64,000 nt of DNA from Paenisporosarcina sp. HGH0030. GTDB taxonomy: Bacteria; Bacillota; Bacilli; Bacillales_A; Planococcaceae. The translations under genes were made by a program, and so were the position numbers. The notes beneath the pieces were generated by a model. The model was not told the origin of the DNA, searched no databases, and was given only the letters and a program-made list of their open reading frames with translations. Shown piece after piece: positions 23,143-44,892 of the stretch; the first letter of the stretch is position 1, and every line of letters begins with the position of its first letter. The stretch covers positions 1 to 64,000 of the forward strand of contig NZ_KE150423.1 in assembly GCF_000411295.1 (NCBI RefSeq). Direction: 5' to 3'.

Positions 23143-23372
23143 GCGAATTCTTCCTTTCATTTTTATAATATTCGTATGAAACAAGAATAAAAGATGCCAA
23201 GAAAAGAAACGAAATTTTATTTATTTTAAAATAGTATGCGTTTGTCTCTACCATAATTAGTACAATTTCGTAACTTACTATATGAGAAAGAAATGTGTAT
23301 CAGCACGAGTTTGAATTAAAGTAAAATTGATTTTTTTCTTTCTCTAATATAAAGATGAAGGGAGGTTTGAAA
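23143..23372. promoter_or_regulatory. Divergent cotH / cotG-like control region
   Basis: AT-rich 230-bp divergent region expected to hold mother-cell (SigE/SigK) promoters. On the minus strand CATACGAAT near 23178-23170 resembles their minus-10 elements but is not a full consensus match. No other promoter can be assigned with confidence. Confidence 0.3.
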
Positions 23373-23882
23373 ATGTCACGTTTTAATGTTGACGGCATTA
23401 AAAATGCAGTCGAACTATCTAACTCTAGAGGGTTAAGCAACTTCATGTTCCAGGATACTTTTAGTAGTGAACGACGCTCGAACAAAAGACGCCGCACAAG
23501 CAGAAATCGTTGCACTTGTCGAAACGGACGGTGCACGAACAGAAATCGTCGTACTTCGCGTAACAGACGATGCACGAGCAGAAATCGTCGCACTTCGCGT
23601 AACAGACGGTGCACGAACAGAAATCGTCGCACTTCGCGTAACAGACGATGCACGAGCAGAAATCGTCGCACTTCGCGTAACAGACGGTGCACGAACAGAA
23701 ATCGTCGCACTTCGCGTAACAGACGATGCACGAGCAGAAATCGTCGCACTTCGCGTAACAGACGATGCACGAGCAGAAATCGCCGCACTTCGCGTAACAG
23801 ACGGTGCACGAGCAGAAATCGTCGCACTTCGTTCAACAGACGATGCTGTAGAAGAGGCTTTTTCGGTAACTGGTTCTTTTAA
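23373..23882 (+). CDS. CotG-like Arg/Ser/Cys-rich repeat spore coat protein
   Basis: Low-complexity protein of 169 residues. A non-repetitive N-terminus of about 45 residues (MSRFNVDGIKNAVELSN) is followed by about nine 13-residue repeats of the type RRTSRNRRCTSRN, ending in CCRRGFFGNWFF. It is highly basic and rich in Ser, Thr and Cys. B. subtilis CotG also has 13-residue basic repeats, lies divergent to cotH and is phosphorylated by CotH, so context and architecture agree although the residues differ (Arg and Cys instead of Lys and His). The ATG at 23373 has GGGAGG upstream. Other frames are also open across the repeat, but only this one has a proper start. Confidence 0.8.
   Translation: MSRFNVDGIKNAVELSNSRGLSNFMFQDTFSSERRSNKRRRTSRNRCTCRNGRCTNRNRRTSRNRRCTSRNRRTSRNRRCTNRNRRTSRNRRCTSRNRRTSRNRRCTNRNRRTSRNRRCTSRNRRTSRNRRCTSRNRRTSRNRRCTSRNRRTSFNRRCCRRGFFGNWFF
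23508..23858 (+). repeat. 39-bp tandem repeat array in the coat gene
   Basis: Nine units of exactly 39 bp start every 39 nt from 23508 to 23820. Units alternate between TGCACGAACAG and TGCACGAGCAG variants (Asn or Ser in the protein), giving a partial 78-bp higher-order pattern. Likely to expand and contract between strains. Confidence 0.9.
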
Positions 23883-26193: not shown

Positions 26194-26967
26194 ATGAGAA
26201 TTAATCACAACATCGCAGCACTTAACACACATCGTCAATTAGGCAGTGCAAACAATGCACAAATGAAAAACATGGAGAAACTATCTTCAGGTTTACGTAT
26301 TAACCGCGCTGGTGATGATGCAGCTGGACTTTCAGTTTCAGAGAAAATGCGCTCACAAATTCGTGGCTTAGATATGGCCGCACGAAATTCACAAGATGGA
26401 ATTTCATATCTTCAAACTGCAGAGGGAGCTCTAAATGAAGTTTCTTCTATGGCAACACGCCTTAAAGAATTAGCAGTTCAAAAAGAGAACGGAACTTATA
26501 ACGCAGAAGACACAATTAACCTTAACTTAGAGATGACAGCTTTAACGGATGAAATTAAGAATATCTATGCAACAACAGAATTTAATGGTAAAAATGTTTT
26601 TACGTCTAGTGTAGATATTACAGTAACTCAAGATGCGTCAGCTATGTTAACTATTGCTCCGGCAACAACGACATTGTCAAACGCTTTAAGTTCTGGTAGC
26701 GATGTAACTGCAATTGATGCTGCAATCGATGAAATTAACTTACAACGTGCAACTTACGGTTCACAACAAAACCGTTTAGAGCATACAATCAATAACTTGA
26801 ATACTACTCAAGAGAACTTAACGGCTGCAGAATCTCGTATCCGTGATGTTGACATGGCGAAAGAAATGATGGAGCAAACTAAAAACTCAATTCTTTCTCA
26901 AGCATCACAAGCTATGTTAGCTCAAGCTAACCAACAGCCTCAAGGCGTTCTACAACTTCTTCGTTAA
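26194..26967 (+). CDS. hag: Flagellin
   Basis: Filament subunit of 257 residues. The conserved D0/D1 ends are complete (MRINHNIAALNTHRQL and KLSSGLRINRAGDDAAGLSV at the N-terminus; LNTTQENLTAAESRIRDVDM and QANQQPQGVLQLLR at the C-terminus). The central part (about 145-190) is very short, so there are no surface D2/D3 domains. The ATG at 26194 follows GGAGG by 10 nt. Regulation combines the SigD promoter, CsrA repression and FliW release. Confidence 0.97.
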   Translation: MRINHNIAALNTHRQLGSANNAQMKNMEKLSSGLRINRAGDDAAGLSVSEKMRSQIRGLDMAARNSQDGISYLQTAEGALNEVSSMATRLKELAVQKENGTYNAEDTINLNLEMTALTDEIKNIYATTEFNGKNVFTSSVDITVTQDASAMLTIAPATTTLSNALSSGSDVTAIDAAIDEINLQRATYGSQQNRLEHTINNLNTTQENLTAAESRIRDVDMAKEMMEQTKNSILSQASQAMLAQANQQPQGVLQLLR

Positions 26968-26984
26968 TTTTTACTTTTTAAAAA

Positions 26985-27017
26985 TGAGATCCTTGTTTAC
27001 GAGGGTCTCTTTTTTTA
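26985..27017 (+). terminator. Terminator after hag
   Basis: Stem GAGATCCTTG / CGAGGGTCTC with G-U pairs, then seven T. Confidence 0.8.
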
Positions 27018-27125
27018 AAGACTTAATATAGGTCTTTGTGTGTATATAAGGGTTATTTGTGCCTGTTATTTTGATATTAAAAAGAGGGTAGTAAGATTTA
27101 AATATATTTTAAAATACCAAGTGAA

Positions 27126-27206
27126 AAAGGCAAACCATTGGGAAACCATGGGGCGCAAAGCCAAGGGCCTGAAACATGTAGATTTACATGAAGGTAGCCG
27201 GTTGCC
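27126..27206 (+). ncRNA. c-di-GMP class I riboswitch (GEMM-I) 1
   Basis: Aptamer for the second messenger c-di-GMP. The core AGGCAAACC, a GAAA tetraloop on P2, the CGCAAAGCC junction, GGGCCTGAAAC and GGTAGCCGG are in the canonical order. By alignment with the Vc2 aptamer as I recall it, the ligand-contacting G20 (27130), A47 (27158) and C92 (27205) are retained. A G at position 20 argues for c-di-GMP rather than cGAMP. It lies directly before a giant repeat protein. Confidence 0.95.
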
Positions 27207-27256
27207 ACAAGGAATCATAGACCGATTCTATGAACCTTGTTGAAGGTTCTTTTTCT
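27207..27256 (+). promoter_or_regulatory. Riboswitch 1 expression platform (antiterminator/terminator)
   Basis: Two exclusive folds are visible. One pairs ACAAGG (27207-27212) with CCTTGT (27235-27240) and CATAG with CTATG. The other is a terminator, GAACCTT (27232-27238) with AAGGTTC (27243-27249) and a T run. Both need 27235-27238. Which one c-di-GMP favours cannot be read with confidence. Confidence 0.75.
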
Positions 27257-27286
27257 TTGGAATTCAAGAAGCGGAGAGGTTATGGA

Positions 27287-30200
27287 ATGAATAAACGAAC
27301 AATTAAAATGACGTCCTATTTGGCGCTATTGCTGCTTTTGATTCAAATGATTAACCCATTTGCAGCTGCATTTGCAGCAACGAATAGTAATATGTTGCCG
27401 CCAAGTAATCTGGCTGTCCAACAAGTGACACCAGATGACGTGAAACTTACGTGGAGTTCTGTATTCGGTGCTACTGGATACAATGTATATGAAATTCAAG
27501 AGGGGCAGCTAAACCTGCTTGGCAATAGCACTTCTCCAAGTTTCAATCTAAATAATCTGTCTGAAGGGACTACTCGATATGTTGTTTCTACGATGAGTCC
27601 AGAAGGGGAATCAGGCCCGAGTGCACCTGTATCGGTAGAAATTCTTTACCCGGAAATGATTGCCCCTTCAACATTGACACAAACAATCAAGAACGGAAAT
27701 GATATCGCCTTGAGCTGGGGGTCATCTGCATATTCAGAAACTAATAATCTTTACCAGCTTTCTGTTGACGGACAGAAGACACTAGTAACAACTACTCAGA
27801 ACAAAACGACATTCACTGTTAATAACGCTCCTGAAGGGAACTTCATATATGCAGTTACAGCAGTTAATGCATTGTATGGGGAATCTCCTCTTTCAGAATC
27901 AGTTCAAGTGGAAGTTGTTTATCCTACGATAAAAGCTCCTGCCAATTTTACGTATTCTGTGACAAATGGGAGCGACATTACATTCAAGTGGAATGCAGCT
28001 GCAAATGCAGCAAATTATAAACTATATCAAATCGTGGATGGACAGCCAGTTTTGAAAAATACGGTGGTTGGTACGTCTGTGAAATTAACGAATGTGCAAG
28101 CAGGAGACTATGAATATGAGATCCGTTCAAACAGTGACCGCTTTGGTGAGTCTGGGGATAGCAGCAAGGTTTCTGTAACTGTAGGTACTGTTTCAATGAC
28201 GGCACCTGGCAATTTTACATATAAGCTTGAAAACACAAATGATGTTGTGTTGGCTTGGGATACAGTCCCGTACGCTAACAGTTACAAAGTCTATCAAATC
28301 ATTGATGGAGAAAAAGTATTGAAAAGTATGGTAACCGGAACTGGAATCAAGTATTCGAAGATGCCTTCCGGAAACTACATTTATGAAGTGTACTCTTACA
28401 GTACTCGTTATGGCGAATCTGCTGAGGGAAGTAGAGCCGAATTGACAGTTGATGAAGTTCTGATTCAAGCACCTGCCAGCTTGGAGTATAAAATACAGAA
28501 CGGCAATGATGTTGTCTTAAACTGGATTGCTGCGGACAATGCGACAAGCTATAAAGTCTATCAAATTGTAGACGATCAAAAAGTATTGAAGAGTACAGTG
28601 ACTGGAACATCGGCAACCCTAGCTAATAGAACAGCTGGTAGTTATAAATTTGAGGTGTATTCACTGAGCGACCGTTTTGGGGAGTCGAAAGAAGGTAGCA
28701 GTGTTTCATTTGAATTGATACATCCAACAATGAAGGCTCCTGCTAACTTGAAAGAAACCATAAAAACGGATACGTCCTTTACGCTGTCTTGGGACACTAC
28801 CGAGTACGCAACGGACTATAGAATCTACCAAATTATAGCGGGACAAAAAACATTAAAGAAAACAGTAACGGCTTCCAATAACACATTTACGAACATGCCG
28901 TCAGGTGACTATGTGTACGAGATACATTCATACTCTTCTAAATTTGGTGAGTCCAATGAAGGATCGAAAGTGTCCTTTACACTGAAAGGCCAGACGATGC
29001 TTGCTCCGCAGGATTTATCGCACACCATTACTAACGGTAATGACATCAAATTGAACTGGACAGATGTAGAAAAGGCGACAAGCTATAAAGTCTATCAAAT
29101 TATTAATGGGGAAAAAGTGCTTAAGAGCAGCCCGACGAGTGAATCCATTGCTTTTTCGAACTCGCCTGCCGGAGATTACACATTTGTGGTTCACTCCTAT
29201 TCAACTACTCATGGAGAGTCGGAATATGGAACGGAAATCTCGTTTAAATTGATTTATCCAACGATTCATGCGCCTGAAAATACTGCATATCAAATTAAAA
29301 ATGGTAATGACGTTGTATTATCGTGGAATGTAGCTACATTTGCAACTGGCTACAAAGTATATGAGCTGGTGGATGGTCAGAAAGTATTGAAGTCTTCGCC
29401 AACAGCATTAACCACCACACTTTCTAAAGTGCCTGCTGGCGAGCATATGTATGTAATCCATTCTGTCAGTTCACGTTTTGGAGAATCGACAGAAGGTACT
29501 TTGCAAAAGGTGACTGTGGACGAGCATACGATGGAAGCTCCGCAAAATGTGACATCAAGCATTGCAAACGGCAACGATTTAACATTGAGGTGGGAAGCTT
29601 CAATATTTGCAACTTCCTATAAAGTTTATCAAGAAAAGAATGGTCAGCTAGAGTTAGTCAAAACAACAACAGGACCATCAACGACATTTGCTAATATGCC
29701 TAAGGGAGATTACAAGTATATAGTTCATTCCTATAGTGATCGTTTTAATGAATCTCCAGTAGGCAGTGAAATAGTTGGTACGATGGTATATCCAACCATG
29801 CAGGCTCCTGGAAATCTTAAACAAAGCATCGTAAACGGAAATGATATTAAACTAACATGGGATGCAGCGGCTTATGCAACCGGCTATAAAGTGTATCAAA
29901 ACGTCAATGGCGAATTGATTTTGACAAAAACTGTACCTAGCACGACTGTTACATTTTTCGATATGCCAGAAGGGGATTACGAATATGAGGTTCGCTCATA
30001 CAGTGATCGTTTCGCTGAATCACCAGTCGGTAGCACAGTAGGTATTAATGTGATTTGGCCAGTCGTAGAACCACCTGTACTTACTAGTAAATTTACTAAT
30101 GTCAACAATGTGGAGTTAACATGGAAATCCGTTACTTGGGCTAATGAATATCGTGTTTACCAAACTGTAGGGGGCAGCCAAACGCTTGTTTATAAAGGAA

Positions 30201-32620
30201 CTGCTTTGAAAGCTAATGTGTACAATTTGGTCGAAAACACGCATTCCTTTGAAGTAAGAGCCTACAGCACACGATTTGGAGAATCCCAACCATCCAACGC
30301 CATTACACAAAAGATTGTATATCCAGAAATGCAGCCACCAACGGCCACAGTGACAGTTTTGAGTAATTCTAGTGCTAGAATAGTCTGGGATTTCGTCACT
30401 TACGCTAACGGATATAATATTTATGAAATCGTTGATGGCAAGGCAGTCTTGGTGGCAGGAAAAGTGAATAACTTATCTTACACAATTAACAATCTGTCAT
30501 ATGCTAACCATGAGTTTTATGTCACTTCTCAAAGTAATTCGTTCGGGGAATCAAAACCATCAAATACGGTTTTGGCCAAATTGATTGTGGATACAGAAGC
30601 ACCGGTTACTATATCTGACGCACCTACAGATTGGACAAATAAGCGTCCTGTCATCACACTGTCAGCATCCGATAATGAAACCGGAGTGGCAACTACGTAT
30701 TATTCAGTGGATGAAAGTGATTTCATTGCTGGAACTAACATTTCAATTGAAGAGGAAGGCATCCACAAAGTTTCCTTCTATTCAGTTGATAAAGTAGGCA
30801 ACAAGGAAGCGATTAAAACCATTAACATCAAGTTTGACAAGACTGCACCTGTGACAAAAGAAAGCGTTACTCCAGCTTGGTCTAACCTGCCTATTACAAT
30901 AACTCTGGCATCAGCTGATGTGCATAGCGGTGTTGCAGCTACCTACTATTCGATTAACGGATCAGAATATATGGTAGGCACAGAACTTACATTAGATAAA
31001 GAAGGAATCAACGAAGTATCCTTCTATTCGATCGACAAAGCAGGCAATAAAGAAAATCCGCAGACAGTAGAAATTAGTCTAGACCAGACAGCTCCTGTCA
31101 CGTTGTCCAATGTTGGAGAACAATGGTTCAATGATCAATTTATCGTTGAATTAACTGCAACTGACGATTTCAGTGATGTACAGGCATCCTATTATTCAAT
31201 CAATGGTTCAGAGTACCAGCAAGGTACAAGCTTCGAATTAAGTAAAGAAGGCATAAATGAAATATCCTTCTACAGTATAGACAATGCAGGAAACAAAGAA
31301 GAAGTGAAAACAGCTAAAGTCAAAATTGACAAATCAGCACCAGCAACAATTTCTAATTCAACTGACGAATGGCACCAAGAGTTCACTGTGGAGTTCACTT
31401 CAAAAGATGAACTTAGCGGTGCAGACTCAACGTACTATTCAGTAAATGGTTCTGAATTTGCAGAAGGAAATAGCCTTCTTGTAAATGAAGAGGGAATCAA
31501 CGTAATCACGTTCTATAGCGTTGATAACGCCGGTAATAAAGAAGAAGTAAAAACAGCTGAAGTCAAAATCGACAAGTCAGCACCAGTAACTTCTTCCAAT
31601 GCAACAACTGAATGGCAACAAGAGTTTACTCTAGAATTTACTGCTAAAGATGACCTAAGCGGTGAAGCAACAACATTCTATTCAGTAAATGGTTCTGATT
31701 TCACAAAAGGCAATAATGTTGCTGTAAAAGAAGAAGGAATCAACGTAATTACGTTTTATAGCGTCGATAACGCTGGTAATAAAGAAGAAGTAAAAACAGC
31801 TGAAGTCAAAATTGACAAGTCAGCACCAGAAACAACTTCAAATGCTAGCGATTTTTGGGTAAAAGAAAGCTTTGCGGTGGAATTGACTGCAGCGGATAGC
31901 CAAAGCGGTTTATCATCAACTTATTACTCTATCAATGGTTCTGAATACGTTGAAGGAAAAAGCTTCACGGTAAATAAAGAAGGAATTAATGTAATTACGT
32001 TCTACAGCGTAGACAAAGCAGGTAACAAAGAAGAAGTGCAAACAATCGAAGTGAAGATTGACAAAACGGCCCCAACTGTAACGTGGGAGCTTAAGGAAAT
32101 CTATACTCTTGGTACAAAACTTCAATTGGCCTATACAGCTAAAGATGCTGAATCAGGAATCAAAACGGAAAGCTTGACGGTTAATGGTGAAGCATATAAA
32201 AACGGTGATATCATCGACTTTACTAAACCGGGTAAATATACCGTAAGAGTAACTGTAACTGACCATGTTGGACTGACGACAACTCTTGAAAAGACAATCG
32301 TAGTCTACATTCATGTAAGCACCATCAAAGTCAATCCTGGTGTTATCAAGGATAACGGCGGAGTTTTCACAGTTGACGTATCGTTGCCAAGAGGATTTGA
32401 CACGAAGAATTTCATTTTAGAAACAGTAACGATCAATGGCGTATCTGCCCTTTCCGGTAAAAATGGCTATGAAAAACAAGCCGAAAAAGGCCAATTCAAA
32501 TTCAATCGGGATGACTTTGACTGGAGTAATGGCAAGCAGACACTTGAGTTCAGTGGAATGGTTGGCGATTACCTAGTACTTGGAACTACCGAAGTGGAAG
32601 TAAAAGGGTCAAAAAAATAA
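27287..32620 (+). CDS. Giant secreted repeat protein, candidate adhesin
   Basis: Predicted exported protein of 1777 residues. A signal peptide (about 1-31, MNKRTIKMTSYLALLLLLIQ then FAAAFA) is followed by 12 fibronectin-III-like repeats of about 89 residues (about 34-1105; each has the KVYQI and RFGES signatures). Six OmpL47-type beta repeats of about 82 residues follow (about 1106-1596; TYYSINGSEY and VSFYSVDKAGNKE), then a diverged Ig-like unit and a unique C-terminal domain of about 90 residues. No LPXTG, transmembrane or SLH anchor is seen, so it is either released, wall-associated by charge, or linked to the filament. The ATG at 27287 has GGAGAGG upstream. Control by a c-di-GMP riboswitch and position among flagellar genes suggest an adhesion or matrix role (inference). 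Confidence 0.8.
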   Translation: MNKRTIKMTSYLALLLLLIQMINPFAAAFAATNSNMLPPSNLAVQQVTPDDVKLTWSSVFGATGYNVYEIQEGQLNLLGNSTSPSFNLNNLSEGTTRYVVSTMSPEGESGPSAPVSVEILYPEMIAPSTLTQTIKNGNDIALSWGSSAYSETNNLYQLSVDGQKTLVTTTQNKTTFTVNNAPEGNFIYAVTAVNALYGESPLSESVQVEVVYPTIKAPANFTYSVTNGSDITFKWNAAANAANYKLYQIVDGQPVLKNTVVGTSVKLTNVQAGDYEYEIRSNSDRFGESGDSSKVSVTVGTVSMTAPGNFTYKLENTNDVVLAWDTVPYANSYKVYQIIDGEKVLKSMVTGTGIKYSKMPSGNYIYEVYSYSTRYGESAEGSRAELTVDEVLIQAPASLEYKIQNGNDVVLNWIAADNATSYKVYQIVDDQKVLKSTVTGTSATLANRTAGSYKFEVYSLSDRFGESKEGSSVSFELIHPTMKAPANLKETIKTDTSFTLSWDTTEYATDYRIYQIIAGQKTLKKTVTASNNTFTNMPSGDYVYEIHSYSSKFGESNEGSKVSFTLKGQTMLAPQDLSHTITNGNDIKLNWTDVEKATSYKVYQIINGEKVLKSSPTSESIAFSNSPAGDYTFVVHSYSTTHGESEYGTEISFKLIYPTIHAPENTAYQIKNGNDVVLSWNVATFATGYKVYELVDGQKVLKSSPTALTTTLSKVPAGEHMYVIHSVSSRFGESTEGTLQKVTVDEHTMEAPQNVTSSIANGNDLTLRWEASIFATSYKVYQEKNGQLELVKTTTGPSTTFANMPKGDYKYIVHSYSDRFNESPVGSEIVGTMVYPTMQAPGNLKQSIVNGNDIKLTWDAAAYATGYKVYQNVNGELILTKTVPSTTVTFFDMPEGDYEYEVRSYSDRFAESPVGSTVGINVIWPVVEPPVLTSKFTNVNNVELTWKSVTWANEYRVYQTVGGSQTLVYKGTALKANVYNLVENTHSFEVRAYSTRFGESQPSNAITQKIVYPEMQPPTATVTVLSNSSARIVWDFVTYANGYNIYEIVDGKAVLVAGKVNNLSYTINNLSYANHEFYVTSQSNSFGESKPSNTVLAKLIVDTEAPVTISDAPTDWTNKRPVITLSASDNETGVATTYYSVDESDFIAGTNISIEEEGIHKVSFYSVDKVGNKEAIKTINIKFDKTAPVTKESVTPAWSNLPITITLASADVHSGVAATYYSINGSEYMVGTELTLDKEGINEVSFYSIDKAGNKENPQTVEISLDQTAPVTLSNVGEQWFNDQFIVELTATDDFSDVQASYYSINGSEYQQGTSFELSKEGINEISFYSIDNAGNKEEVKTAKVKIDKSAPATISNSTDEWHQEFTVEFTSKDELSGADSTYYSVNGSEFAEGNSLLVNEEGINVITFYSVDNAGNKEEVKTAEVKIDKSAPVTSSNATTEWQQEFTLEFTAKDDLSGEATTFYSVNGSDFTKGNNVAVKEEGINVITFYSVDNAGNKEEVKTAEVKIDKSAPETTSNASDFWVKESFAVELTAADSQSGLSSTYYSINGSEYVEGKSFTVNKEGINVITFYSVDKAGNKEEVQTIEVKIDKTAPTVTWELKEIYTLGTKLQLAYTAKDAESGIKTESLTVNGEAYKNGDIIDFTKPGKYTVRVTVTDHVGLTTTLEKTIVVYIHVSTIKVNPGVIKDNGGVFTVDVSLPRGFDTKNFILETVTINGVSALSGKNGYEKQAEKGQFKFNRDDFDWSNGKQTLEFSGMVGDYLVLGTTEVEVKGSKK

Positions 32621-44709: not shown

Positions 44710-44725
44710 GTAGAGTTTTTATCAT

Positions 44726-44811
44726 ACCGATAACGGCAAACTTATTCGAAAGATAAGGACGCAAAGCCACGGGCCTAAGTGAAATCGATAGGGCAGCCGG
44801 GTTACCGAAGA
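44726..44811 (+). ncRNA. c-di-GMP class I riboswitch (GEMM-I) 2
   Basis: Second c-di-GMP aptamer, with ACGGCAAAC, P2 CTTATTC-GAAA-GATAAG, GACGCAAAGCCACGGGCCT, and GGGCAGCCGGGTTACCG in order. Ligand-contact positions corresponding to G20 (44736), A47 (44764) and C92 (44805) of Vc2 are kept. It precedes the flgB-to-flhG operon. Clostridioides difficile has a class I c-di-GMP riboswitch at the same place that turns flagellar genes off. Confidence 0.96.
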
Positions 44812-44827
44812 TGGAAGCTTTTAAAGT

Positions 44828-44857
44828 TATCCACCTTTAATTAAAGGTGGATTTTTA
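44828..44857 (+). terminator. Riboswitch 2 terminator
   Basis: A 24-bp perfect palindrome (ATCCACCTTTAA and its complement) is followed by TTTTTAT, 20 nt after the aptamer and 36 nt before flgB. A possible competing pairing is GATAAC (44729-44734) with GTTATC (44825-44830). Confidence 0.9.
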
Positions 44858-44892
44858 TATGGACCAAACACTTAAACATGGGGGGTTAAAAG

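Follow-up and report, generated by a model that had tools for sequence, protein, structure and literature searches.

The c-di-GMP-I aptamer that precedes a gene for a secreted fibronectin-III (Fn3) repeat protein in Paenisporosarcina sp. HGH0030 (genome size, 3.5 Mb) is followed by an antiterminator (AT) and an intrinsic terminator (T), which are mutually exclusive because the two hairpins overlap, and the presence of a bistable transcription-attenuation platform at this site is well supported. Our folding models suggest, with a probability of roughly 0.6, that this element, hereafter riboswitch 1, is a transcriptional OFF switch that works by strand exchange. We infer the binding of the ligand, the direction of regulation, and its size from the sequence and from predicted structures. 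The window is the whole stretch of DNA that was analyzed, 64,000 nucleotides long; coordinates count from its first letter, and the features given for riboswitch 1, its target gene, and the upstream terminator are all on the + strand.

The aptamer, its locus, and the two hairpins

Riboswitch 1 (27119-27209) scores 62.2 bits with the covariance model of the c-di-GMP-I (GEMM-I) family, RF01051, against a gathering cut-off of 35. The letters at its ligand contacts, G27129, A27157, and C27205, are the G, A, and C that RF01051 requires, and we take them to be positions G20, A47, and C92 of the Vc2 literature. By these features riboswitch 1 is a c-di-GMP-I aptamer, which would be expected to bind c-di-GMP. 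The gene on its 5' side was recognized by eye as flagellin, and riboswitch 1 is probably on a transcript of its own because that gene has a terminator at 26986-27009; a sigma-70 scan of the + strand from 26960 to 27300 gave no promoter-like site. On its 3' side, an open frame from the ATG at 27287 (27287-32620) encodes the 1777-aa Fn3 protein, whose hits include fn3, Big_3_2, and others, Ig-like as well as fn3, and which has a likely Shine-Dalgarno sequence, GGAGAGG, at 27273-27279 (by eye). A glucosaminidase-domain gene and flaG follow. A literature search on this Fn3 target together with c-di-GMP riboswitches found no report. Elsewhere in the window, an apparent tandem repeat at 23355-23882 has open frames on both strands, that of the + strand corresponding to an Arg/Asn/Thr/Ser-rich repeat protein.

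Folding, supported for the outer helix by ortholog comparison, places the outer AT helix between ACAAGG (27207-27212) and CCTTGT (27235-27240), and the inner one between TCATAGA (27215-27221) and TCTATGA (27227-27233). T, found by both folding and the terminator scan, is the hairpin GAACCTT-GTTG-AAGGTTC (27232-27249), with seven pairs, three of them GC, and is followed by the U tract TTTTTCTTT (27250-27258). The original prediction had located these stems directly behind riboswitch 1 and held the hairpins to be mutually exclusive, and on both points it was borne out; its outer AT stem stands as given, and its inner stem, CATAG/CTATG, proved longer. The segment it had named as common to both hairpins, 27232-27240, comprises the 5' arm of T (27232-27238) and two bases of the T loop (27239-27240). 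AT, which was thought to begin one base after the aptamer cytosine pair, starts at A27207, immediately 3' of C27206, the partner of G27123, and the cytosine in contact with the ligand is C27205. What had been overlooked is that A27207 and C27208, the first two bases of AT, are also part of the 3' strand of P1.

Both hairpins are far stronger than those of shuffled sequences. By itself, AT (27207-27242) has an energy of -13.1 kcal/mol (z -5.2), and none of 200 shuffles was equally stable; the corresponding values are -8.9 kcal/mol, z -3.6, and 1 of 200 for T (27230-27256), and z -2.5 and 2 of 200 for the full stretch 27205-27260. The terminator scan of 26960-27300 returned two sites, T and the terminator of the flagellin gene, against 0.2 expected. 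A chance pair of hairpins is ruled out by the shuffles together with the conservation described below. In the platform alone, AT and T are nearly isoenergetic (-13.1 vs -13.8).

Conservation of the platform and of P1

The N-terminal 205 aa of the Fn3 protein were used as the query for orthologs, and they matched in 29 of 261 genomes of the family, in 71 of 398 genomes of the class, where many are weak Fn3 matches, and, at 1e-20, in 38 of 151 genomes of the family of G493. Fifty of the fetched loci were examined, and 38 of them, from several families, have a c-di-GMP-I aptamer close before the fn3 gene; riboswitch 1 and all 37 others pass the Rfam cut-off for c-di-GMP-I or c-di-GMP-I-GGC. A pattern scan of named genomes picked out Mesobacillus subterraneus (L078 = G674), in which this riboswitch again precedes the fn3 gene. 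In two genomes, G670 and G637, the aptamers found by the covariance-model scan (L110:1131-1213 and L111:1133-1215) end nearly 300 bases before the matched gene start. The aptamer-like sequence of G353 is below every Rfam cut-off, and nine loci (L108, L115, L119, L124, L052, L053, L054, L055, and L090) have no c-di-GMP-I aptamer at the Rfam cut-off in the ~1.5 kb around the Fn3 match. Of the 38 loci with the aptamer, 14 have flagellin, identified by motif, no more than 1.5 kb upstream, as do eight of the nine without it, so the riboswitch appears to have been gained or lost at the fn3 locus over time. Upstream of one ortholog, a group I intron match (L112:725-1048) lies in or beside the flagellin region.

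Of the 38 orthologs, 32 have a terminator hairpin according to a script, which found none in the other six (G069, G428, G409, G740, G735, and G743); a motif search placed the two AT arms in 29. The outer AT helix is either AAGAAG/CTTCTT or ACAAGG/CCTTGT, the latter including G-U variants and a form that has lost one base from each arm, ACAGG/CCTGT, and wherever both hairpins were located the 5' arm of T overlaps the 3' side of AT. The spread of AT and T behind the aptamer among these loci shows the arrangement to be old.

Matched AT arms pair better than permuted ones, with means of -6.34 vs -5.38 kcal/mol over 29 orthologs, a difference reached in none of 20,000 permutations; the outcome was the same when C83-C84 were added (0/20,000; 31 orthologs), and matched T arms also beat permuted ones (0/20,000; 31 orthologs). 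Within the ACAAGG class alone (n = 20), 86 of 20,000 permutations did as well as the matched AT arms, and within the AAGAAG class alone (n = 9) 6601 of 20,000 did, so the effect persists inside the former class and disappears inside the latter. The covariation of AT was rejected as clean proof: relatedness inflates the test, and the two sequence classes correspond in large part to clades. In the six-pair class (15 orthologs), pairs 86-90 can form in every member and pair 85 in 13; all of the variation is one-sided. The inner core reads CATAG in 27 and CATGG in one of 28 orthologs that were selected and aligned on that very motif. In these, CATAG/CTATG (27216-27220/27228-27232) is nearly invariant while the loop and the outer stem change, and such a helix, since it hardly varies, provides no proof by covariation.

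The P1 helix of riboswitch 1 possibly has three pairs, between GUG (27121-27123) and CAC (27206-27208), the last two bases of which are shared with AT. Its GTG is kept in 38 of 38 orthologs, but the motif in the script required GTG. P1 pairs were also counted in the c-di-GMP-I family at large, where 71 distinct loci could be compared and two further ones were not placed. Pair 5-84 is possible in 60 of the 71 loci, pair 4-85 in 56 (T-A in 30, C-G in 22, T-G in three, and others), and pair 3-86 in just 38. There is good evidence that P1 in the family would consist of at least two pairs, because pair 4-85 swaps T-A for C-G; the third pair is less general.

Direction of the switch

Ensembles of the whole leader were calculated with ViennaRNA, unconstrained for the free RNA and, for the bound state, under constraints that impose the aptamer core and the G27123-C27206 pair, keep G27129 and C27205 unpaired, and include neither ligand energy nor kinetics. 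In the full-length ensembles of riboswitch 1, P(AT) is 0.92 and P(T) is 0.08 in the free RNA, vs a P(T) of 0.98 and a P(AT) of 0.02 in the bound RNA. When transcripts ending from 27240 to 27256 were folded, the four inner pairs of AT's outer helix stayed at 0.74 or more and T at 0.25 or less in the free series, and T took over from 27246 (0.72) in the bound series, remaining at 0.97 or more thereafter. The median AT-T balance over 32 orthologs goes from -1.6 kcal/mol free to +2.1 bound, or to +1.1 with a flush-stacking bonus. A flip from a free P(AT) above 0.5 to a bound P(T) above 0.5 is predicted in 22 of the 32; the ten that do not flip are six in which the free RNA already forms T (G150, G348, G683, G695, G717, and G389), three that keep AT (G267, G746, and G625), and G631, which forms neither hairpin when free. 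Binding shifts none of the 32 toward AT without stacking and two with the flush-stacking bonus.

The calculation was repeated with four energy settings on 31 orthologs (G278 dropped). The numbers that shift toward T without and with stacking, respectively, are 28 and 28 with Turner 2004, 30 and 30 with Turner 2004 without dangles, 27 and 23 with Turner 1999, and 27 and 22 with Andronescu 2007. The median shifts are just 1.3 to 3.8 kcal/mol, depending on the setting. Under the last two parameter sets, the bound state of riboswitch 1 still leans slightly toward AT (-1.3 and -1.4, respectively).

As controls, 15 c-di-GMP-I switches were folded in the same two states, and the directions given for them are those of the model. 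P(T) falls from 1.00 to 0.00 in L167, L173, and L176, which are from one genus and have a terminator that uses aptamer strands, so the model can answer ON. P(T) also falls in L169 (0.51 to 0.19) and L168 (0.43 to 0.35), and it rises in L170 (0.22 to 0.99, with the cytosine pair not imposed), L171 (0.97 to 1.00), L175 (0.49 to 1.00), L178 (0.00 to 1.00), and L177 (0.50 to 0.99). Four controls are uninformative: L038 was unscored, L040 (0.64 to 0.00) was cut at the wrong U run, and the hairpins of L039 (0.00 to 0.00) and L041 (1.00 to 1.00) are distant. The set includes the other c-di-GMP-I aptamer of the window, riboswitch 2, for which the equilibrium model gives a P(T) of 1.00 both free and constrained, indicating that equilibrium folding can miss a switch. 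Riboswitch 2 (44725-44858, 75.8 bits) stands before flgB, named by eye, and its terminator is ATCCACCTTTAATTAAAGGTGGAT; AAGATGGA may pair with TCCACCTT, one mismatch aside, as an antiterminator. A compact layout similar to that of riboswitch 1 was seen by eye directly behind the aptamers of L186 and L191, from another genus, where a GACGGAAACTCCGTC hairpin rivals the terminator ACTCCGTC...GACGGAGT, and the platform overlaps the 3' strand of P1 by about two bases.

The OFF prediction comes from these models, in which AT is the fold of the free RNA and T that of the RNA with its aptamer constrained, and it can be pictured as follows. Without c-di-GMP, P1 would be weak and the 3' strand of the aptamer free; A27207-G27212 would pair with C27235-T27240 to close an extended hairpin in which the 5' arm of T is tied up, and RNA polymerase would read through into the fn3 gene. 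Upon binding, c-di-GMP would pair with C27205 and lock P1 (G27121-U27122-G27123 with C27206-A27207-C27208), which would remove the two outermost bases of AT; T might then displace the remaining four outer pairs, and transcription would stop. Repression by c-di-GMP would fit a flagellar locus in which the gene comes after that of flagellin. The points against an OFF switch are the small energy shifts and their dependence on the settings, the ten of 32 orthologs that do not flip, the limited occurrence of the third P1 pair, the fact that AT does not take C27205 in the minimum-free-energy structure of free riboswitch 1, the Bc2 switch reported as ON (see below), and a reversal of sign when P1 is reduced to one pair. 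In addition, c-di-GMP in many cases induces targets of the adhesin kind.

That reversal underlies a reading that we regard as unlikely, although it survives best after the OFF switch, namely, that the bound P1 is G27123-C27206 alone, that AT stacks on it coaxially and flush from A27207, and that c-di-GMP would bring about read-through. The original prediction was of this kind, as it suggested that stacking on a ligand-stabilized P1 may favor AT and so make an ON switch. AT does lie flush at A27207, and pair 85 is possible in most orthologs of the six-pair class. In each of the four energy settings, a one-pair P1 with stacking moves riboswitch 1 toward AT (1.1 to 2.2 kcal/mol), so far in keeping with the stacking idea, but the orthologs are mixed, with 14 of 31 going toward T under Turner 2004, 21 with no dangles, and just 10 and 11 under Turner 1999 and Andronescu 2007. 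From other systems, the excerpted report on Cd1 has no P1 helix in its NMR results (PMC9262584), and Bc2, before an adhesin gene in Bacillus thuringiensis, is given as ON in the sections available of PMC4933901. Against an ON switch, pair 4-85 covaries family-wide, and the outer two P1 pairs use the same bases as AT, so that AT overlaps the helix on which it was supposed to stack; when these pairs are allowed, the modeled shift is toward T, and a three-pair P1 leads to T even with the stacking bonus. Moreover, little would be left to switch on because the free RNA of riboswitch 1 already favors AT. About as unlikely is a scheme in which the site is regarded as a three-strand junction. The GU of P1 (27121-27122) and the GU of AT (27239-27240) would compete for A27207-C27208, and AT could always stack flush on whatever remains of P1; if the bound P1 were one pair, coaxial stacking might by itself give an ON response, aptamer and terminator having no strand in common, and two base pairs would determine the sign.

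It is improbable that the leader is bistable yet barely responsive to c-di-GMP, with a kinetic partition between AT and T at a fixed ratio and with expression of the gene mostly set by its promoter. The near equality of AT and T in the platform alone would agree with this idea, and unresponsiveness is conceivable here too given that Bc1 of B. thuringiensis, in the extract of PMC11218506, binds c-di-GMP while expression is unchanged; on the other hand, several families retain the full set of aptamer, P1, AT, and T ahead of the fn3 gene, which argues for the use of the ligand. Mainly translational control, in which a downstream hairpin pairs with the ribosome-binding site and the terminator is secondary, is very improbable: by eye, CCTTTTT...AAAGG occurs immediately ahead of the start codon in many orthologs, and six of the 38 lack a script-found terminator, but riboswitch 1 has a good terminator, and no clear sequestering partner for the GGAGAGG of its fn3 gene was seen by eye. 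In L116, L121, L123, L084, and other orthologs, CCTTTTT...AAAGG can, by eye, pair with the ribosome-binding site, and it may be the control element in G740, G735, and G743, which are among those lacking the terminator.

Whichever direction applies, the locus presents a compact c-di-GMP-I platform that is widely conserved and goes with a single secreted Fn3 protein, in many cases beside flagellin, and it links a surface protein to the decision between motile and sessile life. Natural sequence variants occur in which two nucleotides may decide the sign of a riboswitch. The system is a convenient one for asking how a three-base-pair P1 relays ligand binding to the expression platform, and the natural variants allow the role of the three-pair P1 to be tested.

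Comparison with known riboswitches

The c-di-GMP-I-GGC model (RF03167) describes the same fold, and in a permissive scan it gave riboswitch 1 a better clan E-value; its score, though, is 53.7 bits against a cut-off of 59, and by our own reading of the model its consensus has G where riboswitch 1 has A27157. Identity with c-di-GMP-I-GGC was rejected on these two counts. According to cmscan, RF03167 outranks RF01051 in eight of the 37 other orthologs (L079, L082, L087, L112, L117, L130, L132, and L133), all of which carry A where RF03167 has G, so the two models overlap here; RF03167 is also not specific because many other c-di-GMP-I loci match it.

Bacillus methanolicus has four putative c-di-GMP riboswitches, whose downstream genes are of unknown function or are sinI and an operon for c-di-GMP turnover; the portion consulted of PMC4342826 assigns them no direction. 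Bc2, which precedes cap in B. thuringiensis, resembles riboswitch 1 in its c-di-GMP-I aptamer, its short platform with a terminator, and its adhesion-protein target, as far as the same extract of PMC4933901 describes it; it differs in being reported as ON. Bc2 was not recognized in the 13 loci read of 30 (34 matches, eight further genomes), and among the loci read no genome of the B. cereus group was recognized; in one candidate genus (g40, 12 regions) the downstream genes did not fit cap, and a plasmid search gave partial matches only (7 records).

The pilM riboswitch of Geobacter metallireducens and those of the Bc4 type have a related or the same aptamer class and a terminator just downstream. 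The terminators of these ON switches contain the 3' strand of P1 or P3 along with the ligand cytosine, whose presence there was predicted or measured, according to the part available of PMC4759541. The terminator of riboswitch 1, in contrast, includes neither the 3' strand of P1 nor the ligand cytosine, and a pilM-like ON switch was ruled out since this terminator holds no aptamer strand.

The closest parallel is Cd1, which precedes flgB of Clostridioides difficile and was measured to be OFF at the level of transcription. In the accessible part of PMC9262584, Cd1 shares the aptamer class with riboswitch 1, its AT is built from the 3' strand of the aptamer and the 5' arm of the terminator and sequesters the ligand cytosine, and its terminator can form alongside the bound aptamer. 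The predicted structures of riboswitch 1 have two of these features, in that AT pairs the 3' strand of the aptamer with the 5' arm of T and T coexists with the bound aptamer. The platform of Cd1 is, however, longer, and its AT takes the ligand cytosine, whereas the overlap in riboswitch 1 is limited to two bases of P1 and C27205 pairs upstream in the free minimum-free-energy (MFE) structure. In this respect, 15 of 32 orthologs come nearer to Cd1, as the ligand cytosine pairs downstream in their free MFE structures; where these structures were inspected, the pairing lengthens AT. The targets also differ, flgB in Cd1 and the Fn3 protein gene here. Strand exchange is the heading given to the c-di-GMP case in the portion seen of PMC10907184. 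On the best supported reading, the logic of the platform behind riboswitch 1 is like that of Cd1 and not like that of pilM or Bc4.
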